Assembly: GCF_900177415.1 (NCBI RefSeq)
Contig: NZ_FXAF01000002.1
Span: 558,001 to 622,000, forward strand
Reading direction: 5' to 3'
Length of the DNA stretch: 64,000 nt
From: Xaviernesmea oryzae
Lineage (GTDB): Bacteria > Pseudomonadota > Alphaproteobacteria > Rhizobiales > Rhizobiaceae
The notes beneath the pieces were generated by a model. The model was not told the DNA's origin, did no database searches, and was given only the letters and a program-made list of their open reading frames with translations. Positions 24,108-40,565 of this stretch are shown in pieces; within the stretch, counting starts at the first letter, position 1; every line of letters starts with the position of its first letter. The position numbers and the translations under genes were made by a program.

Positions 24108-26144
24108 TCACACCTCCTGCTTTCGGGTGAGAAGAAGGGCGCCGGATGGGTGAACCGTGCCGGTCCAGCCGGGCGCGACGAGCGTCGTCGTATCGAGCTG
24201 GGTAAGGATCATCGGTCCCTCGAAGGCGGCACCGGCACCCAGCGTCGAACGGTCGACGACCGGAACGCTCTTCACGCCGCTTTCGAAATGCACCGGCACA
24301 TGGTCGAACGGAGCGACTGCCGAACCGGGTTCGAGCTTCGCCGGCGGGGGTTCATGCGTCATGCCGGCGGCTTCGACGCGCAGCGTCACCAACTCGATTG
24401 CGGTATCCAGCGTGAAGCCGTAGAGCGCCTTGTGCTCGGCGGCGAAGGCGGCTTCCACAGCCTCGCGGGTCTCCTCCCAGACGACCGGAAGTTCGCCACC
24501 CTGGCCGTGATAGCGCAGCAGCGCGACCGTCTGCATGCGGCGGTCCTTTTCGGCCACGCCTTCCGTCTCGAACCAGGCGGCCGCCTGCTTCTCGAGGTCG
24601 GCGATGATGCCGCTCGCGACGCCGACATCGATCGCCCCTGCCTTCGGCAGCGTGCGGCTGAACTCGGCCTTGAGATCGGCTGCCAGCAGCCCGTCGGCGC
24701 AGAGGATGCCCGGCGCCGGCGCGATCATGACACGGGAAATGCCGAGCAGTTCGGCGAGCGAGCAGCCATGCAGCGGCCCGGCGCCGCCGAAGGGCACCAG
24801 CGTGAAATCGCGCGGATCGTGGCCGCGCTCGACCGAGACGACACGCACCGCGCCCACCATGTAGTTGTCGACGATCGCCAGAATGCCGCGCGCGGCGGTG
24901 GCGGTCGAAAGGCCGAGCGGATCCGCGACCTTCGTCTCCACGGCCTTGCGTGCGGCTTCCACGTCGAGCGCCATGCGGCCGCCGAGAAGCCGGGCCGGCA
25001 GATGGCCGAGCACGACATGCGCGTCGGTGACGGTCGGGTTCTCGCCGCCATGGCCGTATGCAGCCGGGCCCGGGCGGGCACCGGCGCTCTGCGGACCGAC
25101 GGACAACGTGTGATCGCTCACCTTGGCAATAGAGCCGCCGCCGGCGCCGATCGTCACCATGTCGACCATGGGCAGCGGCAGCGGCCACTCGCCCACCTTG
25201 CCGTGCTGGGTGAGCCCGATCCTGCCGTCCTTGATGAGGCAGATATCCGCGCTCGTGCCGCCGATATCGACGGTGATGATGTCCTTGATGCCGCAGGCGG
25301 CCGCGACCGAGCGCGCGCCCACCACGCCGGCGGCAGGACCAGACAGCGCCGTCAGGGCCGGCGCCTGGCGGATGGTCGCCGCCCCCGCCACGCCACCGTT
25401 CGACTGCATCAGGAGCAGCGGCGCCGCCACCTTCTCGTCTTCCAGCCGCTTTTCCAGTCGTCCGACATAGGTGGTGACGCCCGGCATGACGGTAGCGTTC
25501 AGCACCGTCGTCAGCGAGCGCTCGAATTCACGGACGACCGGCAGCACGTCGGTCGAGGTGGTGATCGCAAGGCCCGGCAGTTCCTCGCGCAGGATTTCCG
25601 CCGCGCGCCTCTCGTGCACCGGGTTGGCGAAGGCATGCAGCAGGCAGACGGCGACGGCCTCGACATCCATTCCCCGGATCGCTTCGGCTGCAGCCCGCAC
25701 GCTCGCTTCGTCCAGCGCATCGACCACGGCACCGCCGGCGGCGATACGCTCGTCGATCTCGATGATGCGCGAGGCCGGCACGGGCCGCTCCGGCTTCACC
25801 CAGGTATAGAGGTTCGCCTTGCGGGGAATGTCCTGGCGGCCGATCGCCAGCACGTGGCGGAAGCCGCGTGTGGTGACGAGCGCCGTGCGGGCGCCTTTGT
25901 CTTCCAGGATCATGTTGGTGGCGACCGTCGTGCCGTGCAGTACCTGGCCGAGCGACGCGGCCTCGCGTTTGGCATCGGCGAGTGCCAGGCGGATGCCGTT
26001 CAGGAAAGCCTCCGAGGGGTCGGACGGCACGCTCGGCGTCTTCGCCCGCCAGACCTTGCCGGTCGCCCGGTCGAGAAGGGCGACGTCGGTGAAAGTGCCG
26101 CCGATATCGACCGCGACGGAAAGAGACCTATCAAGCGAGGACAT
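24108..26144 (-). CDS. hyuA: hydantoinase/5-oxoprolinase subunit A
   Basis: A 678-residue ATP-dependent ring-opening enzyme subunit with the actin-like ATPase fold. The N-terminus has VAVDIGGTFTDVALLDRATG, the phosphate-binding loop, and a second one, TVDIGGTSADICLI, lies near residue 290. VPFGGAGPLHGCSLAELLG is also diagnostic. With subunit B it would hydrolyse hydantoins, 5-oxoproline or related cyclic amides. The start at 26144 is favoured because AGGAG is 7 bases upstream. The ATG at 26150 is too close to it. The gene overlaps the end of hyuB by 14 bases. Confidence 0.93.
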   Translation of the reverse strand: MSSLDRSLSVAVDIGGTFTDVALLDRATGKVWRAKTPSVPSDPSEAFLNGIRLALADAKREAASLGQVLHGTTVATNMILEDKGARTALVTTRGFRHVLAIGRQDIPRKANLYTWVKPERPVPASRIIEIDERIAAGGAVVDALDEASVRAAAEAIRGMDVEAVAVCLLHAFANPVHERRAAEILREELPGLAITTSTDVLPVVREFERSLTTVLNATVMPGVTTYVGRLEKRLEDEKVAAPLLLMQSNGGVAGAATIRQAPALTALSGPAAGVVGARSVAAACGIKDIITVDIGGTSADICLIKDGRIGLTQHGKVGEWPLPLPMVDMVTIGAGGGSIAKVSDHTLSVGPQSAGARPGPAAYGHGGENPTVTDAHVVLGHLPARLLGGRMALDVEAARKAVETKVADPLGLSTATAARGILAIVDNYMVGAVRVVSVERGHDPRDFTLVPFGGAGPLHGCSLAELLGISRVMIAPAPGILCADGLLAADLKAEFSRTLPKAGAIDVGVASGIIADLEKQAAAWFETEGVAEKDRRMQTVALLRYHGQGGELPVVWEETREAVEAAFAAEHKALYGFTLDTAIELVTLRVEAAGMTHEPPPAKLEPGSAVAPFDHVPVHFESGVKSVPVVDRSTLGAGAAFEGPMILTQLDTTTLVAPGWTGTVHPSGALLLTRKQEV

Positions 26145-27981
26145 CGACATACTCCTGACGATGGAATGCACGGGTAGAGGGTCGGTTGGCGCGCAGGGCC
26201 GCCGTGGCGGCCTCATCGACCTTGTTGCCGGCGATCACCACGCCATAGAGACGCTGGGCAGCCTCCGCGCTGACGAAACCGCCGAGCACGTCTTCGAGAA
26301 CGGCATCGAGCTTGCGGTCGTAGGGATGGCCGTAACCGCCGCCCCCGCCGGTCTCCATGCGCAGGATGTCGCCCTTGACCAGCCTGTTGCCGTCGGAGAG
26401 CGGCGCAAGGATGCGTTCATTCTCTTGGCCGGGATTGATGGTCACGCGGCCGGTGCCGCCGCCCATGCCGCCATGGATGCCCCAGGGCGGATTCTTGACG
26501 CTGTCGATGCGCACCGCGAGCATCATGTCTTCCGCCAGGATCTCGTATTCGCGGATGATGCCGCAGCCGCCGCGATATTGGCCGGCGCCGCCGGAATCCT
26601 TGACGATGCCGTAGGTCCTGAGTCGCACCGGATAACCCACTTCCAGGAACTCGACGGGATAATTCTCCTGCGCCACGAAATAGACGGCGTCGATGCCGTC
26701 CGCCTCCGGCCGCGCGCCGTAACCGACGCCGATGCCGTCGGCGAGCAGGAAGCGCTTCAGGTCGCCCGCGTCATCCTTGTAGTTGCCGCGCATGATGGTG
26801 ATGACATAGGCCGAGTTCGAGGCCGGCGCCTTGCCGCCCGCCGTGTTGACGAGACCGTTGAGCGCCGAAAGCACGCGCATGGTGGTCAACCCGCGCATGC
26901 CGAGCGCGGCCGGGAAATTCGGCTGCAGGAAGGACCCTTGCCTCAGCTTCACATCGTCCAGCGCCTGCGGGCCACCGGCATTGCAGACCTGCGCCGGATC
27001 GCCGCCCAGATAATAGAGGCCGAGCGCCATGCCCGGCACGCCGCGGTTCATCAGGAAATTGACCGGACCGGGCGCCTGGTCGTCGGATTGGGTGGCGTCG
27101 AAAATGAACCTGTCCTCGCCGTCCCCCCTCTCGCGGGTCAGCGAGAACCGCATCTTGAACGGACCGTTGCCGTGGCCATCCGTATCGATCGCATCGGTGA
27201 AGCTGTGCGTGCCGTAATCGAAGGTCTCGGCGAGCTTGGCGCGCACCAGCTTGCGGGTGCGGGTGAGCAATTGAGCCAGCGCATCCTCGACGATATCGGC
27301 GCCGAAACGGTCGAGGATTTCCCCGATCCGCTTCACGCCGAGGTCGACGCTCGCCATCAGCGCCCGCATGTCGCCGATGCTCTGTTCGGGAAAGCGGGAA
27401 TTGCGATGGAAGATCGACAGCGTTGCTTCGTTGGTGACGCCCTGGTCGATCAGCTTGGTGACCGGAATGATGATGCCTTCCTGATAGATGTCGGTCGCAT
27501 CGGGGCTGATCGAGCCCGGCCGCATCCCGCCGATATCGGCGAAATGCGCCCAGCTCATCACGAAGGCCGAGCGCTTGCCGTCCTTGAAGACCGGCGCCAG
27601 CAGAACCTGGTCGTTGGAGTGGGAAACGGCGCCGCGCGACCCATAGCAGTCGTTGTACCAGTAGAGATCGCCGGGCTTCATCGTGTCGGCCGGAAAGCTG
27701 TCGAAGACCGGGCCGGTCATGTCGCCGAAGATCGGCACCATGGAGCCGACCGCCATCACGCCGTCGGCATCGAACAAAGCAGTATAAAAGTCCTTCTTTT
27801 CGCGGATGAAGGCGGAAATCGCCGTGCGTTCGAGCAGCGCTTCCATCTCCGACTGGGCGGCGGCGATCGCGCCGCGGATGATTTCGAGCGAAACGGGATC
27901 GCAGGCGGCCCCCTCCCGTTTCGGCGCCCGCAGGGATGCGCCGTCGCTTTCAGGCCCCTTGCTCTCTTGGGGATTGTACAT
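26131..27981 (-). CDS. hyuB: hydantoinase/5-oxoprolinase subunit B
   Basis: A 616-residue subunit B. The family opening DPVSLEIIRGAIAAAQSEME lies near residue 28, followed by LLERTAISAFIREKKDFYTA. FVMSWAHFADIGGMRPGS and the glycine-rich C-terminal GGGGGYGHPYDR are typical. I chose the ATG at 27981, which has GAGGA at 8 bases. An upstream in-frame ATG at 28029 overlaps the stop of the reductase gene (ATGA) and would add 16 residues, so translational coupling from there cannot be excluded. The A and B subunits act as a complex in the cytoplasm. Confidence 0.92.
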   Translation of the reverse strand: MYNPQESKGPESDGASLRAPKREGAACDPVSLEIIRGAIAAAQSEMEALLERTAISAFIREKKDFYTALFDADGVMAVGSMVPIFGDMTGPVFDSFPADTMKPGDLYWYNDCYGSRGAVSHSNDQVLLAPVFKDGKRSAFVMSWAHFADIGGMRPGSISPDATDIYQEGIIIPVTKLIDQGVTNEATLSIFHRNSRFPEQSIGDMRALMASVDLGVKRIGEILDRFGADIVEDALAQLLTRTRKLVRAKLAETFDYGTHSFTDAIDTDGHGNGPFKMRFSLTRERGDGEDRFIFDATQSDDQAPGPVNFLMNRGVPGMALGLYYLGGDPAQVCNAGGPQALDDVKLRQGSFLQPNFPAALGMRGLTTMRVLSALNGLVNTAGGKAPASNSAYVITIMRGNYKDDAGDLKRFLLADGIGVGYGARPEADGIDAVYFVAQENYPVEFLEVGYPVRLRTYGIVKDSGGAGQYRGGCGIIREYEILAEDMMLAVRIDSVKNPPWGIHGGMGGGTGRVTINPGQENERILAPLSDGNRLVKGDILRMETGGGGGYGHPYDRKLDAVLEDVLGGFVSAEAAQRLYGVVIAGNKVDEAATAALRANRPSTRAFHRQEYVDVLA

Positions 27982-28025
27982 GCTGGAATCCTCGATGGAT
28001 GAAATGGAATGGAAAGATCGGGAGC

Positions 28026-29033
28026 TCATGGCCGGCCCCCGATCAGGACGACGACATTGCCGAGGCTGCCGCGCTCTACGCGCTCATGAGCCCCGGCGAT
28101 GTCGTGAAGCGGAAATGTCGCGCCGATCGCGACCTTGAGTTTGCCGGCATCGGCCAGCTCGGCGATCATCTTCTCGCCGGCCAGCCGCTGAGCCTCGGGG
28201 ATCAGGAAGCCCTGGATGAAGCGCAGGTTGGCGCCCTTGCTGGCAAAAGCGTAGTAGGGAAGCGTCGGCGTCGGATTGCTGCTCGACGAATAGGAAGCGA
28301 CCGTGCCGTTGCGCTTCAGGACGGCCGCATCAAGCTCCAGATTGGCGCCGAAATCCACCTCGACGATGCGATCGACGCCCGCGCCTTCCGTCAGCTCGAG
28401 AACCCGCGCCGTGACATCTTCCCTTTTGCGGTCGATGGTCGCGAAAGCGCCGGCATCCATCACATGCGCGGCCGCTTCGGGATTGCTCACCGTGCCGATC
28501 ACCCGCGCGCCGCCGGCAACCGCCATCTGCACGGCAAAATGCCCGACGGCGCCGGCCGCACCGTTGACGAAGACCGTCTGGCCGGCGACAAGACCGTCCG
28601 CGAAGACGGCGCGGTAGGCGGTCATGGCGGGCACGCCGAGATTGGCGCCCTCGGCATAGCTCAGGCTGTCCGCCAGCCTTACCGCCTGATGCGCGGCGAT
28701 GGCGATGAATTCGGCCGCGGTGCCGAAGGCGCGGCCCGCCTCGCCGTATCCGCCTTGCGCATTCCACATCCAGACCCGCTCGCCCACACGGGAGGGATCA
28801 ACGCCCTCACCGACCGAGACGATCTCCCCTGCCCCGTCCGTATGCGGAATGACCAGCGGATGATCGAGCCCCATGCCGCGCCAGCCGGCGCGGCGCTTCA
28901 CGTCGGCGGGGTTGATACCCGAGGCGTGAACCCGCACCAGCACGTCGCCGGGGCCTGCGACCGGCGCAGCCATTTCGCCAACGGAGAGAACTTCCGCGGC
29001 GGGACCGGTACGTGTGTAGGTGGCAGCTAACAT
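28026..29033 (-). CDS. NADPH:quinone reductase-like zinc-independent MDR oxidoreductase
   Basis: A 335-residue medium-chain reductase of the quinone oxidoreductase (zeta-crystallin) type. It has VRVHASGINPADVKRRAGW at the N-terminal domain and the nucleotide-binding FVNGAAGAVGHFAVQMAVAG. The structural zinc cysteines of alcohol dehydrogenases are absent. GGAGG precedes the ATG. It lies 12 bases after the ABC ATPase gene, in the middle of the peptide/hydantoin operon. It may detoxify or reduce an enone released during catabolism, but no substrate can be named. Confidence 0.88.
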   Translation of the reverse strand: MLAATYTRTGPAAEVLSVGEMAAPVAGPGDVLVRVHASGINPADVKRRAGWRGMGLDHPLVIPHTDGAGEIVSVGEGVDPSRVGERVWMWNAQGGYGEAGRAFGTAAEFIAIAAHQAVRLADSLSYAEGANLGVPAMTAYRAVFADGLVAGQTVFVNGAAGAVGHFAVQMAVAGGARVIGTVSNPEAAAHVMDAGAFATIDRKREDVTARVLELTEGAGVDRIVEVDFGANLELDAAVLKRNGTVASYSSSSNPTPTLPYYAFASKGANLRFIQGFLIPEAQRLAGEKMIAELADAGKLKVAIGATFPLHDIAGAHERVERGSLGNVVVLIGGRP

Positions 29034-29045
29034 CGAAACCTCCGC

Positions 29046-30035
29046 TCAGAACAGATGACAGGCGACGGTACGCGTGCCGACCTGCCGCGGCTGCGGCACT
29101 TCCGCCGCGCAGCGCGCATGCGCCGACGGACACCGGTCGCGGAAGACGCAGCCGGAGGGCGGGTTGCGCGGATCCGGCGCACCGCGGCCGATCGGCAGCG
29201 GATCGTGGCTCTGGTCGGGATTGGGCACCGGCACCGCGGCGACCAGCGCCTTCGTGTAGGGATGCAACGGCTGATGGACGATATCCTCGGTCGGTCCGTC
29301 CTCCATGATGCGGCCGAGATACATGACGATCGTCCGCTCGCAGACGTAACGCACCAAAGCCAGATCGTGGCTGATATAGATGGCGGTCAGCCCCAGCCGG
29401 TCGCGCACGTCGCGGAAGACGTTGAGCACCCCTGCCCGGACGGAAACGTCGAGCATGGAGACCGGCTCGTCGGCCACGACGAATTCCGGCTGCAGGATCA
29501 GCGCCCGCGCCATGACGACCCGCTGCAGCTGGCCGCCCGAAAGCTGGTGCGGATAACGGTCGAGAAACTGCGCCGGCTCGGGCAGGCGGACGAGTTCGAG
29601 CGCCTTGATGATGCGGCCTTCCCGCTCACCGCGCGGGATGCCCGCATTCTCCAGCGGCTCGGAGAGCGTCGCGCGGATGCTGAAGCGCGGGTTGATCGCG
29701 TCGAACGGATTCTGGAAAATGAGCTGCGCCCTGGAGCGGAACGTCTTCAACCCCTTGCGCTGGACCTTGCCCAGTTCCTCGCCGTCGAAATGGATCGAAC
29801 CGCCGGTGGTTTCTTCGAGCTTCAGCAGCAATCGGCCCATCGATGTCTTGCCGCAGCCGGATTCGCCGAGCAGCCCGACGCTTTCGCCGCGGCGGATGTC
29901 GAAGGTGACGCCGTCGACCGCCTTCACGACCGTCGACTTGCCGCGCATCGCGGCGAAGGCGCCGCCGACACGGTAATGCAGCCTGGCATCGTGCACGGAG
30001 ACGAGAACGTCGGTTTTCCTGGTCGCTATATTCAT
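29046..30035 (-). CDS. oligopeptide ABC transporter ATP-binding protein (DppF/OppF-like)
   Basis: A 329-residue ATPase. Walker A is GLLGESGCGKTSMG, the signature is LSGGQLQRVVMARAL, and Walker B is FVVADEPVSMLD. The C-terminal oligopeptide-transporter extension carries cysteines in GCVFRDRCPSAHARC, the iron-sulfur-like cluster motif of Dpp/Opp ATPases. It overlaps the stop of the partner ATPase gene by four bases (30032-30035). Confidence 0.94.
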   Translation of the reverse strand: MNIATRKTDVLVSVHDARLHYRVGGAFAAMRGKSTVVKAVDGVTFDIRRGESVGLLGESGCGKTSMGRLLLKLEETTGGSIHFDGEELGKVQRKGLKTFRSRAQLIFQNPFDAINPRFSIRATLSEPLENAGIPRGEREGRIIKALELVRLPEPAQFLDRYPHQLSGGQLQRVVMARALILQPEFVVADEPVSMLDVSVRAGVLNVFRDVRDRLGLTAIYISHDLALVRYVCERTIVMYLGRIMEDGPTEDIVHQPLHPYTKALVAAVPVPNPDQSHDPLPIGRGAPDPRNPPSGCVFRDRCPSAHARCAAEVPQPRQVGTRTVACHLF

Positions 30036-31048
30036 GCGCGGGCCATCCAGGTCTCCGTCTTGGCGGCTTCGATGCGTAAGGCTGCGCTTTCGGATGCGCG
30101 ATGGCAGAGCACCGGATGCCCCGGCGCCACATCGACGACCGGCGGCTCCGAGCCGCAGAGATCGAGCGCGAAGGGACAGCGCGGCTTGAACCGGCAGCCG
30201 GTGGGCGGATTTGCGAGGTTCGGCGGCGCACCCTCGATCGGCGTCAGCACGCCGGAAGCTGCGCCCTGCAGGTCCGGGAAGGCATTGCGCAGGCCCATCG
30301 TGTAAGGATGCGACGGCGCGGTCAGCGCCGCCTGCATGCTGCCCGACTCCGCCACCTTGCCGGCATACATGACGACGGTTCGGTCGCAGATATAGGCGAC
30401 GACGGAGATATCGTGCGTCACGAGGATGACCGACAGGCCGAGCCGCGTCTGCAGCTCCTTGAGCTGGTCGAGGATCTGCCGCTGCACGATGACGTCGAGC
30501 GCCGTGACAGGCTCGTCGGCGATGATCAGCTTCGGGTCGAGCGCAAGGGCGAGCGCGATCGCCACCCGCTGGCGCATGCCGCCGGAAAACTGGTGCGGGT
30601 AATCGGTCAGCCGGCCCGGATCGATGCCGACCATGTCGAACAGCTCTTCGGAACGCTTGCGCGCCTGGGCCCTGCTCATGCCGCCGCGACGCCGCAGCAC
30701 TTCGCCGAGCTGGTATTCGACCGTGTAGACCGGATCGAGCGAGTTCATGGCGCTCTGCGGGATGAAGGCGATGTCGCGCCAGCGCAGCGCATTCATCTCC
30801 TTCTCCGGTATCCTCGCGAGGTCCTTGCCGTTAAACAGGATCTGCCCGCCGGAGATCGTCGCATTGTCGGCGATCACCCGCGTCAGCGCCCGGGCGACGG
30901 TGGTCTTGCCGCAGCCGGATTCGCCGACAAGGCCGGTGATCGAACCCTTCGGAATGTCGAAGCTCGCGCCATCCACCGCATGGACGAAATTGCGCCCCAC
31001 CTGATAGCTGACGCGTAAATTCCTGACGGAAAGAAAGGCTTCTGTCAT
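30032..31048 (-). CDS. oligopeptide ABC transporter ATP-binding protein (DppD/OppD-like)
   Basis: A 338-residue ATPase pairing with the DppF-like protein. Walker A is GLVGESGCGKTTVA, the signature is FSGGMRQRVAIALAL, and Walker B is LIIADEPVTALD. The C-terminal extension has GCRFKPRCPFALDLC. Its ATG lies 4 bases after the stop of the DppC-like permease gene, consistent with one polycistronic message. Confidence 0.94.
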   Translation of the reverse strand: MTEAFLSVRNLRVSYQVGRNFVHAVDGASFDIPKGSITGLVGESGCGKTTVARALTRVIADNATISGGQILFNGKDLARIPEKEMNALRWRDIAFIPQSAMNSLDPVYTVEYQLGEVLRRRGGMSRAQARKRSEELFDMVGIDPGRLTDYPHQFSGGMRQRVAIALALALDPKLIIADEPVTALDVIVQRQILDQLKELQTRLGLSVILVTHDISVVAYICDRTVVMYAGKVAESGSMQAALTAPSHPYTMGLRNAFPDLQGAASGVLTPIEGAPPNLANPPTGCRFKPRCPFALDLCGSEPPVVDVAPGHPVLCHRASESAALRIEAAKTETWMARA

Positions 31049-31052
31049 CGGT

Positions 31053-31973
31053 TCAACTTCGGGAAAAGGATGTTTTCATAACCGCGGTGATGAAGAAGCC
31101 CGCGCTGACGACGAGGATGATGCAGACGCCCGGCGGCACGAACCAGTAATAGGCCTGCTTGGCGAGCGCCTGGCTCGCGAACGCGTCCTGCAGCATGTAG
31201 CCCCAGCTGATCGAATCCGGATCGCCGAAGCCGAGGAAGCTGATAGAGGCCTCGGTGAGGATCGCCCAGCCGATCGCGATCGATCCGTAGAGGAAGGAAA
31301 GCGGCAGGATGTTCGGCGCGATATGGCGCAGGATGATCTTGAAATCGGAAGAGCCCGCCACCCGCGCCGCCTCGACATAGCCGCGGGTCCTGAGCGTCAG
31401 CACCTGGCTGCGGATGACGCGGGCGGTATCGCGCCAGAGCACCAGCGCCATGGCGATGACGACGTTCCAGATCGAAGGCTGCAGGAAGGCTGCGAGCACG
31501 ATGACGAAAGGCAGGAACGGGATGCCGAAGGCGATGTCGGCGAGCCGCATCAGCACCGCATCCACCCAGCGGCCGAAGTAGCCGGCGACGAGCCCGATGA
31601 TCGAGCCGATCAGCGCCACCATGAAGGCGGCGGTCACGCCGATCAGAAGCGCCGAGCGGCTGCCGTAGACGAGCTGCGAGAAGATGTCCCGGCCGAGGCT
31701 GGTGGTTCCCATCAGGAAACCGTCCTGCCCCGGCCGAAGGTCCGCCGCCAGATCGTAGGAGGGCGTGTAGAGGATCTCGGTCGGGTCGTGCGTGGCGATC
31801 TGATCGGCAAACACCGCCGCCACGACGAAGACGAGATAGATGACGAGGCCGGCCACCGCGAACGGATCGTTGACCGGCAGCTTCAGCGCCTGGAAAATCC
31901 GGACGACGATATGGGGTCTTCTTATACCCGCGGTCTTGGAAATGGTGCTCTTGGGAATGGCGATCTCAGGCAT
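31053..31973 (-). CDS. oligopeptide ABC transporter permease (DppC-like)
   Basis: A 306-residue permease with an N-terminal cytoplasmic tail, the OppC_N-type helix (FAVAGLVIYLVFVVAAVFAD) and further helices after the periplasmic segment GTTSLGRDIFSQLVYGSR. The EAA loop is EAARVAGSSDFKIILRHIAP. It overlaps the end of the DppB-like gene by 8 bases. Confidence 0.93.
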   Translation of the reverse strand: MPEIAIPKSTISKTAGIRRPHIVVRIFQALKLPVNDPFAVAGLVIYLVFVVAAVFADQIATHDPTEILYTPSYDLAADLRPGQDGFLMGTTSLGRDIFSQLVYGSRSALLIGVTAAFMVALIGSIIGLVAGYFGRWVDAVLMRLADIAFGIPFLPFVIVLAAFLQPSIWNVVIAMALVLWRDTARVIRSQVLTLRTRGYVEAARVAGSSDFKIILRHIAPNILPLSFLYGSIAIGWAILTEASISFLGFGDPDSISWGYMLQDAFASQALAKQAYYWFVPPGVCIILVVSAGFFITAVMKTSFSRS

Positions 31974-32943
31974 GCGAGACCCTCGGATCGAGAATGGCGT
32001 AAAGCATGTCTGCCAGCAGGTTCATCAGGATCACGACGAGCGCGATCATCAGGAAGGCGCCCTGCGCCAGCGGATAGTCGGAGGCGGCGACCGCATTCAC
32101 CAGCTCGCGGCCGAGGCCGGGCCAGGAGAAGACCGATTCCACCACGACATTGCCCTGGAGCTGGTAGCCGACGGCGATCGCAAACGAGGTCATGACCGGC
32201 AGCAGCGCGTTGCGCGCCGCGTGGCGCACCACCACCGTCCAGTTCGAAAGCCCCTTGATGCGGGCCATGGTGACGAAGTCCTCCTTCATCACGTCCAGCA
32301 TGTTGGAACGCATCAGGAGGAGCGGCAGGCCCTGACTGTAGATCGCGAGCGTCGCGGCCGGCAGGACCAGATGCGCAAGGAAGTCGCGCGACGTATAGAG
32401 GTCGAGCAGGCCCGAATATTCCGCGCCGGGATCGCGCGTGCCGCCCGCCGGAAACCAGCCGAGCGAGAAGGAGAAGATCGCCAGGAGCACCATGCCGAGC
32501 CAGAATTCCGGCATGGCGCGGGTCGTCAGCACCATCGGGATGGCCGCCTGCTCCACCCAGCTTCCGCGCCGCCAGGCGAGATAGGCGCCGGCCAGGATGC
32601 CGAATGCATAGGCGATGATCAAAGAGGAGAAAGTCAGGATCAGCGTGTTCGGCAGCAGGATCCAGATACGCTGGCCGACCGGCTCGCGATAGCGGAAGCT
32701 CTGGCCGAGTTCGCCCTGCAGGAGATTGCCGAGATAGATCAGGTATTGCTGCCAGAGCGGCTTGTCGAGGCCGAACTGGGCCATGAGCTGCTGTTGCTGC
32801 TCCAGCGTGAAGGTCGGGTCGATATAGGCGGCCATCGGATTGCCCGGCATCAGCCGGAACATCAGGAAGAGGATGGTCACCACCGCCCACAGGACAAGAG
32901 CGAGCTGCAGCAGCCTGCTGCCCACGGCCTTGAAATTGCTCAT
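31966..32943 (-). CDS. oligopeptide ABC transporter permease (DppB-like)
   Basis: A 325-residue permease. The first helix is LLQLALVLWAVVTILFLMFR, followed by the periplasmic segment MPGNPMAAYIDPTF typical of DppB. The EAA-type loop, VMKEDFVTMARIKGLSNWTV, lies in the second half. It is the first permease gene after the binding-protein gene, from which it is separated by 118 bases containing a strong hairpin. Confidence 0.93.
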   Translation of the reverse strand: MSNFKAVGSRLLQLALVLWAVVTILFLMFRLMPGNPMAAYIDPTFTLEQQQQLMAQFGLDKPLWQQYLIYLGNLLQGELGQSFRYREPVGQRIWILLPNTLILTFSSLIIAYAFGILAGAYLAWRRGSWVEQAAIPMVLTTRAMPEFWLGMVLLAIFSFSLGWFPAGGTRDPGAEYSGLLDLYTSRDFLAHLVLPAATLAIYSQGLPLLLMRSNMLDVMKEDFVTMARIKGLSNWTVVVRHAARNALLPVMTSFAIAVGYQLQGNVVVESVFSWPGLGRELVNAVAASDYPLAQGAFLMIALVVILMNLLADMLYAILDPRVSHA

Positions 32944-33061: not shown

Positions 33062-34714
33062 TCACTTGGCGGCGACGGTTTCCTTGCTGTCGCCCGGATA
33101 GTGGAGCTTGCCGCCTTCCAGCGTGTAGCCCGCATCCTTCAAGGTCTTCGCCGCGATGGCCTGGCCTGCCTTGAAGTTTTCAACGACCGACTTGTCGTGC
33201 CAGAACTCGAGCGCCGGAGAGACGATGGAATTCGAGGCGACCGCGAAACCGCGATAGGCGGCCTTGACGATCAGCTGGCGGTCGACCGCTTCCGAAAGCG
33301 CCCGGCGGAAGGCGGGGTCGTTGAAGGGCGGCCGGCGTTCATTGAAGGCGATGTAGCGGAAGCCCATGTCGACCGTCGAGACGACTTCCAGATCGCCGTC
33401 CTGCTGGGCTGCGTTGACCAGCACCTGCGGATCGCCGGTGAACTCGCCCATGAAGTTGACCTCACCCGAACGCAGCATGCCGAGGGCTGCTTCCGCATTC
33501 GGAACGATGCGCAGGATCCAGCGGTCCACCTTCGGCGGATTGAAGTGATCCTTGTTCGCGGCAAGCGTGACGGACTCGTTCTTCGCCCAGCTGACGAACT
33601 TGAACGGGCCGGAGCCGATCGGCATCTGCTCCTGGTAGCTTTCCGCCGTTTCCGGCTTGGCGGCGAGGTCCTTCAGGATCGGTTCCCAGACATGCTTCGG
33701 GATCAGGTTGATCTTGGCAAGGCTGGAGGTGACGAAGGAGGCGGCCGGCTTCTTCAGCTTGAAGGTGATCACGTCGCCATCGATGGCGATCGAGTCGATA
33801 TTGGTGGCGAAGGGCTTGTACATCGGCGCTTCTCCGCCGACGGCCGCTTCGAAGGAGAACTTGACGTCGTCCGGTGTCACCGGCTGGCCGTCATGCCACT
33901 TCAGGCCGGATTTCAGCTTCACGTCGACCGTGGTCGCATCCTTCCAGGTGAAGCTCTCGGCCGCCCACGGCTTCGGCAGGCCGTCCGGGCCGACGCGTAG
34001 CAGGCGGTCCCAGACGAGTTCGGTGATCCAGCTGTCGACACTTCCCGAGATATAGAGCGGGTTGATCGACTTGATATTGTCGGAGGAGTTGATGATCAGG
34101 TCCTTCTTGGCGCCGGCCGGCTCGATGCCCAGGAAGGTCCAGGTGTTGCGGATGCCGATGCCGCTCTGGTTGACGACCGATTCCGGCTTCCAGACGGTCT
34201 TGTCGAAGGCGAAGGTCGACTTCGGATGCACCAGCATCATGTAGGGCTGGTCCTTGCTGAGGATCTCCTGCGCCTTGTAGACGAGCGCCTTGCGCTTTTC
34301 CGGATCGATCTCGCCGCGCTGCGCCTCGGCAGTCGCGTCGTAATCCTTGTTCAGGTAGCCCGCGAAATTATAGCCGTTCTCCGCGGTCGAGGAATGGAAG
34401 AGGTTGAAGATGAGTTCGTCGGGGTCGGAGCGCTCGGGACGGCCGACCATCTGCCAGGCGGTCGAGTCCCAGTCGTTGCGCTTGTACCAGACGACATCGG
34501 ACATCTGTTCCCACGGCATCGCCTTGACCTCGACGTCGAGACCGAGCTTGCGCCATTCCTGGGCAATGAGCTGGACGGACTGGAATTCCGCCTGCTGGCC
34601 GGCCTGCGGACGGCTCAGGAGGGTGATCTTGCGGATCGGATCGCCGGCCCAGGCGGGCAGAGCGACGGCTGTCACCACAAGCGCTGCAAATGCACTTTTC
34701 AACACGGACTTCAT
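33062..34714 (-). CDS. oligopeptide ABC transporter substrate-binding protein, apparently circularly permuted
   Basis: A 550-residue exported protein with a Sec signal peptide (MKSVLKSAFAALVVTAVALP, then AWA). It belongs to solute-binding family 5, but the parts appear in swapped order. Residues about 27-200 carry what is normally the C-terminal third: IAQEWRKLGLDVEVKAMPW, then NFAGYLNKDYDATAEAQRGE, then KALVYKAQEILSKDQPYMML. Residues about 215-550 then carry the normal N-terminal portion: SDNIKSINPLYISGSVDSW, LRVGPDGLPKPWAAESFTW, SGLKWHDGQPVTPDDVKFSF. The chain ends after AIAAKTLKDAGYTLEGGKL, where usual members continue into the first segment. The start at 34714 has AGAGGAGA upstream. It heads the importer operon. 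Confidence 0.9.
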   Translation of the reverse strand: MKSVLKSAFAALVVTAVALPAWAGDPIRKITLLSRPQAGQQAEFQSVQLIAQEWRKLGLDVEVKAMPWEQMSDVVWYKRNDWDSTAWQMVGRPERSDPDELIFNLFHSSTAENGYNFAGYLNKDYDATAEAQRGEIDPEKRKALVYKAQEILSKDQPYMMLVHPKSTFAFDKTVWKPESVVNQSGIGIRNTWTFLGIEPAGAKKDLIINSSDNIKSINPLYISGSVDSWITELVWDRLLRVGPDGLPKPWAAESFTWKDATTVDVKLKSGLKWHDGQPVTPDDVKFSFEAAVGGEAPMYKPFATNIDSIAIDGDVITFKLKKPAASFVTSSLAKINLIPKHVWEPILKDLAAKPETAESYQEQMPIGSGPFKFVSWAKNESVTLAANKDHFNPPKVDRWILRIVPNAEAALGMLRSGEVNFMGEFTGDPQVLVNAAQQDGDLEVVSTVDMGFRYIAFNERRPPFNDPAFRRALSEAVDRQLIVKAAYRGFAVASNSIVSPALEFWHDKSVVENFKAGQAIAAKTLKDAGYTLEGGKLHYPGDSKETVAAK

Positions 34715-34996: not shown

Positions 34997-35797
34997 ATGA
35001 CCGAACCGAAAGACTACAAGATCGCGGCCGTGGACCGGGCGCTTGCCCTCCTCGAAGCACTGGCCGACCGTCCGGAACAGGGCGTCACCTCGCTCGCGAA
35101 ATCCCTTGGCATGACCAAATCCCTCGTCTTCCGGCTGCTGCATACGCTGGAGGAGCGAGGCTTCGTGTCGCGGGACCCGGAACGCGCGGAATATTCGCTC
35201 GGCTACCGCATCGGCGTGCTCGGCGAACGGCTCGGCAAGGACGGCGCCCTGCTCTATGCCGCCCGGCCGGTGATGGATGCCCTGCGGGACAAGACGTCAG
35301 AGAACGTCAATCTCGTGATCCGGGAGGGGCTGAAAAGCTATGTGCTCGCCACCCGCGCCGGCTATCATTCGATCCGGCTTTTCGCCCAGGCGGGACGCAA
35401 CGGCCCATTGCATGCGGGCGGCGGATCGCTGCTTCTGCTTGCCTATGCCGATCCGTCCGTCGTCGACACCGTGCTCGCCCAGCCCCTCGAAGCCTTCACG
35501 CCGCATACGGTCACCGATCGCGCCAAGCTGCGCCAGGTGCTCGAACGCATCCGGGCGAACGGCTACAACATCGTGCTCAACGACCTCGATGACGGCGCCT
35601 TCTCGGTGGCTGCGCCGATCCGCAGCGCCGACGGAGCCGTGATCGCCTCGATCTCGGTCGCGGGCGCGGTGGTCCGCTTCGACGAGGAGCGCCGGGAAAC
35701 CTATCTGAAAGCGGCGCTCGACGCCGCGGCGGAAATTTCCGAACGCCTGTCGATCCACGGCCCGGGCGAGAACGGCCGTGTGAAATCAATGGCTTAG
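34997..35797 (+). CDS. IclR-family transcriptional regulator
   Basis: A 266-residue regulator. The N-terminal winged helix has AVDRALALLEALADRPEQGV and SLAKSLGMTKSLVFRLLHTL, the classical IclR recognition helix. The C-terminal effector domain begins near residue 85 and includes GPLHAGGGSLLLLAYAD and VAAPIRSADGAVIASISVAG. The ATG at 34997 has GGAGG 8 bases upstream. It is divergent from the peptide importer/hydantoinase operon and just upstream of the M28-like peptidase gene. The paired operator motifs suggest it controls both. Confidence 0.93.
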   Translation: MTEPKDYKIAAVDRALALLEALADRPEQGVTSLAKSLGMTKSLVFRLLHTLEERGFVSRDPERAEYSLGYRIGVLGERLGKDGALLYAARPVMDALRDKTSENVNLVIREGLKSYVLATRAGYHSIRLFAQAGRNGPLHAGGGSLLLLAYADPSVVDTVLAQPLEAFTPHTVTDRAKLRQVLERIRANGYNIVLNDLDDGAFSVAAPIRSADGAVIASISVAGAVVRFDEERRETYLKAALDAAAEISERLSIHGPGENGRVKSMA

Positions 35798-36196: not shown

Positions 36197-37921
36197 ATGA
36201 ACGAGATCGAATCCGCCGTTCTGGGAGCGGTGAAGCTGGATGAACCCTGGGCGCTGATCGAAAGCTTTGCGACCTACAAGCGCGAACATCCGACCGATGT
36301 GAACCGCGGCATGGACGAAGTGGCCGCACGTCTGAAGAAGCACGGCGTGGACGTGACCATGCACGAGCCGAGCCTCTATCTCAGCCTGCCGGGGCTTGCC
36401 CGCGTCGAAGCCGGCGGCAAGACGTTTCGCGCCAAGCCGCCGGCTTATGCCAAGGATGCCAAGGCCGGCGTGAAGGGCGAGCTCGTCTACATCAGCAGCC
36501 ATCAGCCGAAAGCGATCTCGACCATGTTCGAGAAGGCCGTCGAGGATACCGACAACCTCGCCGCCCGGGTGCGCGGCAAGGTCGTGCTGTCGGAAGGTTT
36601 CGCCAATCCGGGCCTCGTCTCGCAATTCACCGAGCTCGGCGCGATCGGCGTCATCGCGATCAATCCCGGCGTCGATATCCACTGGGGCATCTGCACCACC
36701 GTCTGGGGCACGCCCGATCTCGACGACCTGCCCCGCAAGCCGTCCATCCCGGCCGTCGCCGTCAACCGCGAGAGCGGCGATGCGCTGATCGAGCTCGCCA
36801 AGTCCGGCGCCGAGGTCACCGTCTTCACCGACATGGAGGAAGGCTGGTTCACGTCCAAACTGCCGGAAGTCTTCATCGAGGGTACGGACGAGCCGGAGAA
36901 ATACATCCTCCTGCACGGCCATCTCGATAGCTGGGACGTTGGCGTGGGCGACAACGCCACCGGCGATGCGACGTTGCTCGAAATCGCCCGCGTGCTCTGG
37001 GCCAATCGCGACAAACTGAAGCGCTCCGTGCGCATCTGCTGGTGGCCGGGCCATTCGACCGGCCGTTATGCAGGCTCCACCTGGTTCTCCGACAATTTCG
37101 CGCTGGACCTCGACGAGAATTGCGTCGCGTCCGTCAACTGCGACAGCCCCGGCTGCCGCTGGGCGACCGAGTTCATCAACCTCTGCATGATGAGCGAGAC
37201 GGAAGCCTTCCTCTCCGACGTCATCGAGGAAGTGGCCGGCAAAAAGGCCGAAGGCGAGCGCCCGCACCGCGCCGGCGACTATTCCTTCAACAATATCGGC
37301 CTTTCGAGCTACCTGATGCTCTCCTCGACCATGGCGGACCGCGACCGGGAGGAAAAGGGCTACTACACGGTCGGCGGCTGCGGCGGCAACATCGCCTGGC
37401 ACACCGAGAACGACACGCTGGAGATCGCCGACAAGGATATCCTGTTGCGCGACATCAAGGTCTATCTGCTCGCCGTGCTGCGCAATGCCAATGCGAAGAT
37501 CCTGCCCTTCGACTGGCGCGCGACGGCACGGGAATTCCTAGACACGGTCGATACCTATCAGAAGAAGGCCGGCGATCGCTTCGATCTTTCACCGACCCGC
37601 AAGGCCGTGGAATCCTTTGCTGAAGCACTCGCTGCCTTTCATGCCGGCATCGACGGCGGCAAGGTGGAGGCGAGGGAGGCCAACCACGTGATCCAGCGCC
37701 TCGCCCGCATACTCGTACCGCTGAACTATACCCGCGAGCAGCGTTTCCGTCACGATCCCGCCCTGCCGATCCCGGAACTTCCAGCACTCTCGACGGCTGC
37801 CGATTTCGACAAGCTCGATCCGGCCAAGCATGGTTTCGCCAGGACGCAGCTCGTCCGCGGCCAGAACCGCGTCATCGCAGCACTTCGCCAGGCCGAAGAG
37901 CTCGTCCGCTCCGCCGGTTGA
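36197..37921 (+). CDS. M28-family metallopeptidase-like protein with PA domain and altered active-site pair
   Basis: A 574-residue protein of the M28 aminopeptidase/carboxypeptidase fold without a signal peptide. A protease-associated domain lies at about residues 120-210. Metal ligands are conserved in HGHLDSWDVGVGDNATGD (His242, Asp252), VNCDSPG (Asp316) and IAWHTENDTLE (His402). The usual adjacent pair of glutamates (general base and metal ligand) should stand in CWWPGHSTGRYAGS, but this segment has Gly285-His286 instead. Either a His replaces one ligand or the protein is not a standard peptidase. GGGGAG precedes the ATG. It shares an operator motif with the peptide importer. Confidence 0.82.
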   Translation: MNEIESAVLGAVKLDEPWALIESFATYKREHPTDVNRGMDEVAARLKKHGVDVTMHEPSLYLSLPGLARVEAGGKTFRAKPPAYAKDAKAGVKGELVYISSHQPKAISTMFEKAVEDTDNLAARVRGKVVLSEGFANPGLVSQFTELGAIGVIAINPGVDIHWGICTTVWGTPDLDDLPRKPSIPAVAVNRESGDALIELAKSGAEVTVFTDMEEGWFTSKLPEVFIEGTDEPEKYILLHGHLDSWDVGVGDNATGDATLLEIARVLWANRDKLKRSVRICWWPGHSTGRYAGSTWFSDNFALDLDENCVASVNCDSPGCRWATEFINLCMMSETEAFLSDVIEEVAGKKAEGERPHRAGDYSFNNIGLSSYLMLSSTMADRDREEKGYYTVGGCGGNIAWHTENDTLEIADKDILLRDIKVYLLAVLRNANAKILPFDWRATAREFLDTVDTYQKKAGDRFDLSPTRKAVESFAEALAAFHAGIDGGKVEAREANHVIQRLARILVPLNYTREQRFRHDPALPIPELPALSTAADFDKLDPAKHGFARTQLVRGQNRVIAALRQAEELVRSAG

Positions 37922-38071: not shown

Positions 38072-38255
38072 GTCAGGGATTTTCGAACCGTTGTCGGCAG
38101 TCTGACTCGCGCCGACTTTTCGGCCCGAGCTTGCATCTAATCTGCCCGACAGGGCGACAGAAACATTTGTCAAATCGGAACTCCTGCCTTAGCGTCACGG
38201 CCAGTGTCAGCGAGGCTGATACCGATCGCTTGTGCCTGCCGGGGAGTACGTTCTT

Positions 38256-40565
38256 TTGAGCAATGATCATGAGGTCTTCACCGGCCGCCGGGAAGACGCG
38301 AGGCTTGTTACCGGGCAAGGCGCCTATACCGCCGACAAGAGACTGGATGGACAGCTTTACGCCGCGTTTTTGAGGGCGGACCAGCCGCACGCGCGCATCG
38401 TCTCGATCGATGTGGAAGCGGCGATCGAGGCACCCGGCGTTCATCTCGTTTTGACGGGCAAGGATGCGCTCGAAGCCAGGCTGATCGCCCCCGGCCCGCT
38501 CATCTCCTTCCCGGGCGTCGACGGCATGACGATCAGGGCGCCGGTCCGCTACGCGCTCTCGACCGACCGCGTCCGCTTCGTCGGCGAGCCGGTCGTCCTG
38601 GTCGTTGCCGACAGCGCGGAAGCTGCCGCCGATGCGGTCGAACTCATCGCCGTCGAGTACGAGGAACTGCCGGCGGTCGTCGATGCCGAAAAGGCACTCG
38701 AGGAGGATGCGCCGCAGCTCTTCGACGACGTGCCCGGCAATCTGGTCTTCCTGCACGGCTTCGGCGACAAGGCCGCAACCGACGAGGCCTTCGCCAGGGC
38801 CACCCATATCTCGAAGCTTACCGTCGAATCGCAGCGCGTCGCCGCCAACCCCCTCGAACTGAAATCCTTCATGGCGGCCTACGATCCGGAAACGGACATC
38901 TTCGACGTCTATTCCGCCAGCCAGGGCACCGGCCTTGCCGATGGGCTTGCCCGCTTCACCGGCCATCCGCCGGAAAAGGTCCGGCATCATATGGGCGATG
39001 TCGGCGGCAGTTTCGGCATCCGCGGCGCGGCCTATCCGGAATATGCGGCGATCATGCTCGCCACGCGAAAGCTCTGTCGCCCGGTGCGCTGGACCGCCAG
39101 CCGCACCGAGAGCTTTCTTGCCGATTACCATGGCCGCGCGGTGAAGCTCACCGGAGAACTCGCCATGAACGAGGCCGGCGAGTTCCTCGGCATCCGCATC
39201 GGCGTCGTGTGCGATCTCGGCGCCTATCATTCGCCGCCGGGCGCGTTGATCAACGTGCTGAACCCGATGCTGACGGGCACCGGCTGCTACAGGATCCCTG
39301 TCGTTTTCGGCCTCAACAGGCTCGCCTTCACCAACACCTCTCCGATCGCCGCCTATCGCGGCGCCGGCCGTCCCGACATCAACTATATGGTGGAACGGCT
39401 GGTCGATCAGGCTGCGGCCGACATCGGCATGGATCGGGTCGAAATCCGGCGGAAGAACCTGATCCCGGACGACGCCTATCCCTACCGGACGCCGACCACG
39501 GTCTATGACAGCGGCAACTATGTCGCCATGCTGGAGGAAGCGGTCTCGATTTCCGACTGGAAGGGTTTCGAGGCGCGCCGCAGGGAGGCCGAAAGCCGCG
39601 GCAACCTGCGCGGCATCGGCATGGGCATTTTCATCGAACCGTCGGGCGGCGGCCATATGCCGGAGGAAACGGAAATCCGTTTCGAACCCGACGGCACGAT
39701 CACGCTCTACACGCTCTCCGGTTCCGCCGGCCAGGGCCATGAGACGGTCCTGCCGCGGCTTGTCGCGAGGGAGCTCGGCATCGACGAGAACCTGATCACG
39801 CTCCGCGCCAACAGCGTGAAGGCGCCCCACAGGCTGAAGGGCGCCGGAACCATGGGCTCCCGCACCATGGCCTCGCACGGCGCCTCGCTCACGGTCACCT
39901 CGCGTGAGGTGGTGAGGAAAGGCTTCAAGCTCGCCGCGGACGCGCTGGAAGCCTCGGAAAACGACATCGAGTTCGACCATGGCCATTACAAGGTCGCCGG
40001 CACGAACCTTTCCGTCTCGCTCATGGAACTCGCCGCCCGCAACGTCACGCTGGAGGGCAATGCGCTCGACACCTTGGCCTCGATCCAGCCGGAGCGCAAC
40101 TTTCCGGGCGGCGTGCATGTGGCCGAGGTGGAGATCGATCCCGGCACCGGCGAGACGAAGGTCATCTCCTATATCGGCGTCGACGATGCGGGCCGCGTGA
40201 TCGACCATACGCTTCTCGAAGGCCAGATGCATGGCGGCCTGGCCCAGGGCGCCGGCCAGGTCTTCGGCGAAGAGATCGTCTACGACGGCGACAGCGGCCA
40301 ACTTCTGACCGCCACCTTCATGGACTATTTCATGCCGCGGGCGGATTTCATGCCGACGCCGCGCTTCGTCGACATGCCGGTGCCTTCGCCGACCAACGTG
40401 CTTGGCGCCAAGGGCGGCGGCGAAGCGGGCACGACCGGCGCCCTGCCGACGTTGATGAACGCGGTGGTGGATGCGCTTCGCCGGGCGGGCGTCAGGGAAT
40501 TCGACATGCCGGCAACGCCCTACAGGATCTGGAAAGCTTTGAAATCGGCAGAAGCCGGCATATGA
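38256..40565 (+). CDS. xanthine dehydrogenase-family molybdopterin-binding subunit (form II CoxL-like)
   Basis: A 769-residue large subunit of a molybdenum hydroxylase. It begins with the Ald_Xan_dh_C domain (GRREDARLVTGQGAYTADKR), followed by the cofactor-binding domain. The active-site loop reads SPIAAYRGAGRPD. AYRGAGR is the form II pattern, not the AYRCSFR of true CO dehydrogenase. The catalytic Glu is in LGAKGGGEAGTTG near the C-terminus. The start is a TTG at 38256 with GGGGAG upstream. A GTG at 38232 would run through that site. No FAD or iron-sulfur subunit gene lies beside it, so its electron partners must come from elsewhere. Confidence 0.88.
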   Translation: MSNDHEVFTGRREDARLVTGQGAYTADKRLDGQLYAAFLRADQPHARIVSIDVEAAIEAPGVHLVLTGKDALEARLIAPGPLISFPGVDGMTIRAPVRYALSTDRVRFVGEPVVLVVADSAEAAADAVELIAVEYEELPAVVDAEKALEEDAPQLFDDVPGNLVFLHGFGDKAATDEAFARATHISKLTVESQRVAANPLELKSFMAAYDPETDIFDVYSASQGTGLADGLARFTGHPPEKVRHHMGDVGGSFGIRGAAYPEYAAIMLATRKLCRPVRWTASRTESFLADYHGRAVKLTGELAMNEAGEFLGIRIGVVCDLGAYHSPPGALINVLNPMLTGTGCYRIPVVFGLNRLAFTNTSPIAAYRGAGRPDINYMVERLVDQAAADIGMDRVEIRRKNLIPDDAYPYRTPTTVYDSGNYVAMLEEAVSISDWKGFEARRREAESRGNLRGIGMGIFIEPSGGGHMPEETEIRFEPDGTITLYTLSGSAGQGHETVLPRLVARELGIDENLITLRANSVKAPHRLKGAGTMGSRTMASHGASLTVTSREVVRKGFKLAADALEASENDIEFDHGHYKVAGTNLSVSLMELAARNVTLEGNALDTLASIQPERNFPGGVHVAEVEIDPGTGETKVISYIGVDDAGRVIDHTLLEGQMHGGLAQGAGQVFGEEIVYDGDSGQLLTATFMDYFMPRADFMPTPRFVDMPVPSPTNVLGAKGGGEAGTTGALPTLMNAVVDALRRAGVREFDMPATPYRIWKALKSAEAGI

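Follow-up and report, generated by a model that had tools for sequence, protein, structure and literature searches.

A family 5 solute-binding protein with swapped segment order encoded beside a likely peptide- or hydantoin-type importer in Xaviernesmea oryzae

The stretch of Xaviernesmea oryzae DNA analyzed here (64,000 nucleotides of contig NZ_FXAF01000002.1, hereafter the window) encodes on its minus strand, at 33062..34714, a solute-binding protein in which nearly all of the mature chain can be matched to family 5 (SBP_bac_5, cluster C), with the two matching pieces in swapped order. We regard it as highly probable that this protein is a cluster C relative with swapped segments, likely of a single origin, which is predicted to keep the usual clamp fold and likely feeds peptide-like or hydantoin-like solutes to the adjacent ATP-binding cassette (ABC) importer. 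A circular permutation had been proposed in a sequence-only reading of the gene. This proposal is supported by sequence profiles, a doubled-profile test and a predicted model, and the motifs quoted for it are present in the translated open reading frame in the order claimed.

The swapped order was derived from a canonical profile of 517 positions, made with 30 family 5 proteins encoded in the same genome. Residues 29-178 of the window protein match profile positions 358-503 (74.5 bits) and residues 202-531 match positions 34-354 (243.1 bits). The profile is thus used about once, with the cut at 354-358. Since positions 358-503 precede 34-354, the protein departs from the canonical chain order of domains I, II and III and is filed as a permuted branch derived from family 5, not as an ordinary member. 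A co-linear match to family 5 over the full length was not seen for the window protein. The features of the gene and its product, all on the minus strand, are as follows.

33062..34714, minus strand: permuted family 5 solute-binding protein of 550 amino acids (profile, Pfam and structure-sequence matches)
34646..34714, minus strand: signal-peptide-like start, residues 1-23 (MKSVLKSAFAALVVTAVALPAWA), judged by eye
34181..34630, minus strand: residues 29-178, canonical end segment (profile 358-503 of 517), placed first (profile matches)
34103..34117, minus strand: short stretch linking the native C- and N-termini, residues ~200-204, by eye against DppA
33929..34291, minus strand: residues 142-262, junction-spanning segment used as search probe (alignments A2 and A3)
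33122..34111, minus strand: residues 202-531, opening of the canonical mature protein (profile 34-354), placed last (profile matches)
33065..33121, minus strand: new C-terminal tail at the cut, residues 532-550 (sequence and alignment)

The reading frame starts with ATG at 34714, preceded by AGGAGA, and ends with a stop codon at 33062-33064. With its signal-peptide-like start, judged by eye, the protein is predicted to be exported. Two details of the sequence-only reading have to be adjusted. The chain does not end at KDAGYTLEGGKL, as 13 further residues follow (HYPGDSKETVAAK), and the linker of the native ends, placed there near residues 200-215, is by eye about five residues long (~200-204).

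Searches in Pfam gave the same picture. The whole protein scored 229.9 bits with SBP_bac_5 (PF00496) against a curated cut-off of 32.4. No other family was matched, and of its two stretches the better one places residues 247-537 on profile positions 2-285 of 368. Searched separately, as the sequence-only reading had suggested, the two halves matched opposite ends of the family profile: the N-terminal 203 residues aligned to positions 293-366 (E 1.2e-6) and the remainder to positions 2-285 (E 1.7e-62). In the best solved chain, Bacillus AppA (1xoc), residues 205-533 correspond to chain positions 23-347 and residues 38-171 to 368-496. NCBIfam models, Opp4A, NikA, GsiB and DppA among them, match best towards the later part of the chain, and all remain far below their cut-offs; owing to the swapped order, models of this type align to a part of such proteins only. 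Two unrelated NCBIfam models overlap short stretches of residues 45-84 (E 0.0074 and 0.01), also far below cut-offs.

An alternative explanation would be a canonical family 5 protein that carries an unrelated additional domain at its N-terminus and is truncated at its C-terminus, and the low score of the N-terminal segment alone (28.3 bits, below the cut-off of 32.4) could be quoted in its favor. That segment, however, matches the end of the family 5 profile and supplies the very part that is absent at the other end of the chain, as seen in the order test and with the doubled profile described below. A profile made from the first 203 residues retrieved 19 solved sequences at E <= 0.001, all of them matched from residue 347 or later and all binding proteins of family 5 type by entry name. 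The possibility raised in the sequence-only reading that these residues stem from another domain family was likewise not borne out in Pfam, where only family 5 was matched. On the combined result of order test, doubled profile, solved-structure matches and separate Pfam search the unrelated domain was rejected, and we give it hardly any credence.

For the doubled profile, two canonical copies were placed head to tail. All 12 permuted proteins compared (12/12) align to it as one stretch across the copy boundary and in 11/12 the score exceeds the total of the two separate pieces, the protein without gain being P0205. E. coli K-12 DppA and OppA, by comparison, remain within one copy. The AlphaFold2 model of the window protein (mean predicted local distance difference test score, pLDDT, 88.2; predicted template modelling score, pTM, 0.86) likewise predicts the usual two-lobed clamp of family 5. 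Predicted alone, the N-terminal segment gave a poor model (pLDDT 55.1) that fits the family 5 fold weakly. The new chain ends, which had been expected beside the third domain, fall in the stretch that we take to be domain III of DppA.

The same order and the same cut were found in 120/120 among the homologues listed and in 21/21 genome loci. All 47 loci tested after the junction searches were permuted, a number which includes the 21 named ones and in which some represent the same gene. Copies in metagenome-assembled genomes (MAGs) of Trueperaceae, Halanaerobiales and Thermomicrobiales are 52-59% identical to the window protein, and divergent bacterial and haloarchaeal relatives are permuted as well. 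The junction-spanning segment 142-262 is free of gaps in the 12 rows of alignment A2, MAGs of three other groups included, and shows small gaps after addition of divergent relatives (alignment A3). An artefact of assembly, frameshift or annotation, or a decayed gene, finds no support in the window; the one observation pointing in this direction is a separate reading-frame break in a single strain record. With order and cut recurring across homologues, isolates and MAGs from several groups, and with the junction gap-free as described, this explanation was rejected and its probability is practically negligible. In the record concerned, a plasmid of Neorhizobium galegae VafX2 (L085:8460-10227), the break splits the permuted gene into two frames; some neighboring genes are oddly fused or split, possibly by sequencing errors, and other strains have intact copies.

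The distribution of the permuted branch is patchy. With the junction probe at E <= 1e-12, 15/247 genomes of the family, that of the window included, gave 17 matches, of which 12 were strong; the three other listed genomes of the same genus gave none at this threshold. At E <= 1e-6, 10/240 genomes of the class matched, again including that of the window. Among plasmids, 14/72,556 records matched, from Neorhizobium, Ketogulonicigenium, Roseomonas, Microvirga, Nitratireductor and the archaeon Haladaptatus. In the best 120 of 560 matches to a haloarchaeal query, the first 91 comprised 89 permuted proteins and 2 fragments, and the last 29 were canonical. A phylum-wide probe of 299 genomes, with scoring limited to 14 candidates per genome, returned the window's gene alone, further genomes of the same family being in the sample; either the permuted branch is rare or this probe performs poorly. 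Of 201 genomes from the phylum to which the Thermomicrobiales MAG belongs, 7 matched, two of them with a junction-spanning match. The newly found one of these (L117) was permuted, and the six matches covering the N-domain side only (L118-L123) had canonical order. The genome of the window holds 49 PF00496 places, of which one is permuted; 30 canonical places were order-tested against the profile built from these same proteins and the other 18 judged from Pfam ranges. The patchy distribution would fit transfer and loss.

For the tree, residues were placed on the columns of the canonical profile, of which 450 were kept after removal of those near the cut and the native ends. Thinning by fill and identity reduced 146 permuted rows to 41 and 89 canonical rows to 70. 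The 41 permuted rows form one clade against the 70 canonical ones, with a bootstrap of 100 and a Shimodaira-Hasegawa-like approximate likelihood ratio test (SH-aLRT) value of 100, and do so in all 200 bootstrap trees. A quick tree built earlier, with 36 permuted against 58 canonical rows, also gave one clade (SH-aLRT 99). Order tests and tree together show the permuted order to be fixed in a clade among the sampled proteins, a point left for checking by the sequence-only reading, and from these sequences the permutation likely arose once. Nothing forbids repeated cuts at one loop, and permutations of other origin would escape a permuted set that was gathered through resemblance to either this junction or a permuted relative from haloarchaea; given the single clade in both trees, we nevertheless consider a recurrent origin at the same loop unlikely.

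The sequence diversity suggests an old event, as the permuted proteins (median identity 30%, minimum 20% in the sample) are nearly as diverse as the canonical ones (median 25%). Among the 89 canonical proteins compared, the closest shares 27% identity with the window protein. Three canonical proteins (L104, P0214 and P0229) group with the permuted clade at a support of 95/90, but long branches meet there and for this reason no sister branch is claimed.

An origin by duplication and trimming, as put forward earlier, is in accordance with the doubled-profile result. After a tandem duplication, the front of the first copy and the back of the second may have been lost. No duplication intermediate was found in a non-exhaustive search, no head-to-tail family 5 neighbors were apparent in the list for the genome of the window, and this step therefore keeps its inferred character. 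One candidate, a 1260-residue frame in a Trueperaceae MAG (L127, 746-4525), was rejected as it contains a single canonical copy at residues 738-1258. Its first 737 residues have no Pfam match, and it may be a fusion or an overlong frame.

The surroundings of the permuted gene bear on its function. Downstream on the same strand it is followed by the genes for a pair of permeases, a pair of oligo_HPY ATPases, an oxidoreductase and the B and A subunits of a hydantoinase, and two genes lie divergently.

31966..32943, minus strand: permease 1 (BPD_transp_1)
31053..31973, minus strand: permease 2 (BPD_transp_1)
30032..31048, minus strand: ABC ATPase 1 with oligo_HPY tail
29046..30035, minus strand: ABC ATPase 2 with oligo_HPY tail
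28026..29033, minus strand: oxidoreductase resembling zinc-binding dehydrogenases
26131..28029, minus strand: hydantoinase B/oxoprolinase subunit (HyuB)
24108..26216, minus strand: hydantoinase A/oxoprolinase subunit (HyuA)
34997..35797, plus strand: IclR-type regulator, divergent, start picked by eye (scanned from 34973)
36197..37921, plus strand: M28 family peptidase, divergent

In their longest frames, hydantoinase A and B share 86 bases (26131-26216); one of the two may truly start further in. Farther along, at 38232-40565, the window encodes a molybdopterin-binding subunit similar to xanthine/aldehyde oxidases, and a similar gene occurs in 5/36 fetched loci.

In these 36 loci, which have short flanks and are in part identical or close kin, matches anywhere were obtained for permease 1 in 36, for permease 2 and for each ATPase query in 35, for IclR in 28, M28 in 25, the oxidoreductase in 23, HyuB in 21 and HyuA in 19. 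Both ATPase queries match one gene in L015, and in L062 the binding-protein gene stands last, not first. Permease 1 lies on the same strand as the permuted gene in 36/36 loci and permease 2 in 35/36, and this linkage is kept in a haloarchaeon and in relatives that share no more than 28-32% identity with the window protein. Some binding proteins are generally known to serve as receptors, and the altered chain order could be taken as a sign that the protein is a sensor or decoy that keeps the fold but is no longer an importer subunit. The permease linkage, retained in divergent relatives and a haloarchaeon too, argues against this possibility, which we judge to be quite improbable. As an importer subunit, the binding protein would capture its ligand in the cleft between the lobes, dock on the permeases as canonical members do and likely supply the ABC importer, whose genes follow directly, with peptide-like or hydantoin-like solutes.

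A peptide-derived or cyclic amide substrate is suggested by recurring peptidase, hydantoinase, amidohydrolase and racemase neighbors. M20, M28 and hydantoinase genes are nearby in annotated Ketogulonicigenium and Roseomonas records, D-aminoacylase, dipeptide epimerase and M81 genes in an annotated Haladaptatus record, and M19, M24, amidohydrolase and Asp/Glu/hydantoin racemase genes in one Halanaerobiales MAG. Import of another ligand class, such as opine-like compounds, sugars or metal chelates, is possible but doubtful: going by entry names family 5 proteins bind such classes too, and one divergent permuted relative (L058:1427-2536) adjoins an octopine-dehydrogenase-like gene, hinting at another substrate in its subgroup, whereas peptidase genes together with hydantoinase or amidohydrolase genes recur in distant genomes. 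On a Halanaerobiales contig (L126, 5354-6961 and 18111-19784), the permuted importer genes are accompanied by a canonical family 5 gene at a distance of about 11 kb on the same strand; another pair of permeases and M19/M24 peptidase genes lie between or next to them.

A lipobox-like cysteine near the start, scored with a loose pattern and no control, occurs in 61/65 haloarchaeal-type members (L083, P0122-P0188), in 7/24 other members of the haloarchaeal-query list and in 0/121 of the main group. In the haloarchaeal-type members that bear it, such a cysteine would attach the anchor at domain III rather than domain I. One may tentatively go further and see here an ancient, unnamed permuted class, 'cluster Cc', whose N-terminal anchor or free end was shifted from domain I to domain III and kept for altered tethering or permease docking, although we would not put this forward as the probable case. 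If true, the opposite lobe would be the one from which the clamp is suspended.

Importer subunits of family 5 are very common, and the order of their domains is generally regarded as fixed. A divergent and widespread permuted branch tied to complete importers represents a natural experiment on the position of the chain ends, bearing on folding, export, anchoring and docking. The window protein resembles established members of family 5/cluster C (AppA 1xoc, DppA, OppA, NikA/NikZ; PF00496) in homology over nearly the whole mature chain, in the bilobed fold predicted here and in the linkage to two binding-protein-dependent (BPD) permeases and two oligo_HPY ATPases. It differs from them in its swapped segments, in new ends within what we assume to be domain III and in the join of the native ends by about five residues. 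No report of a permuted cluster C protein was found in the open-access literature searched, and homology to Type I/cluster B sugar binders was not found, as Pfam at E <= 1 gave only PF00496. The closest precedent is TpMglB-2 (Tp0684) of Treponema pallidum. Its authors describe a circularly permuted glucose binder of cluster B, show ligand binding by experiment and propose a 'cluster Bc' (PMC4990184). Both are natural circular permutations of an ABC binding protein that are conserved in a group of genomes; according to the same paper, TpMglB-2 is of Type I/cluster B, has strands of the N-lobe moved and is found in treponemes and Gram-positives (PMC4990184). The branch of the window protein, in contrast, belongs to cluster C, is cut in domain III and extends over Alphaproteobacteria, some other bacteria and haloarchaea.
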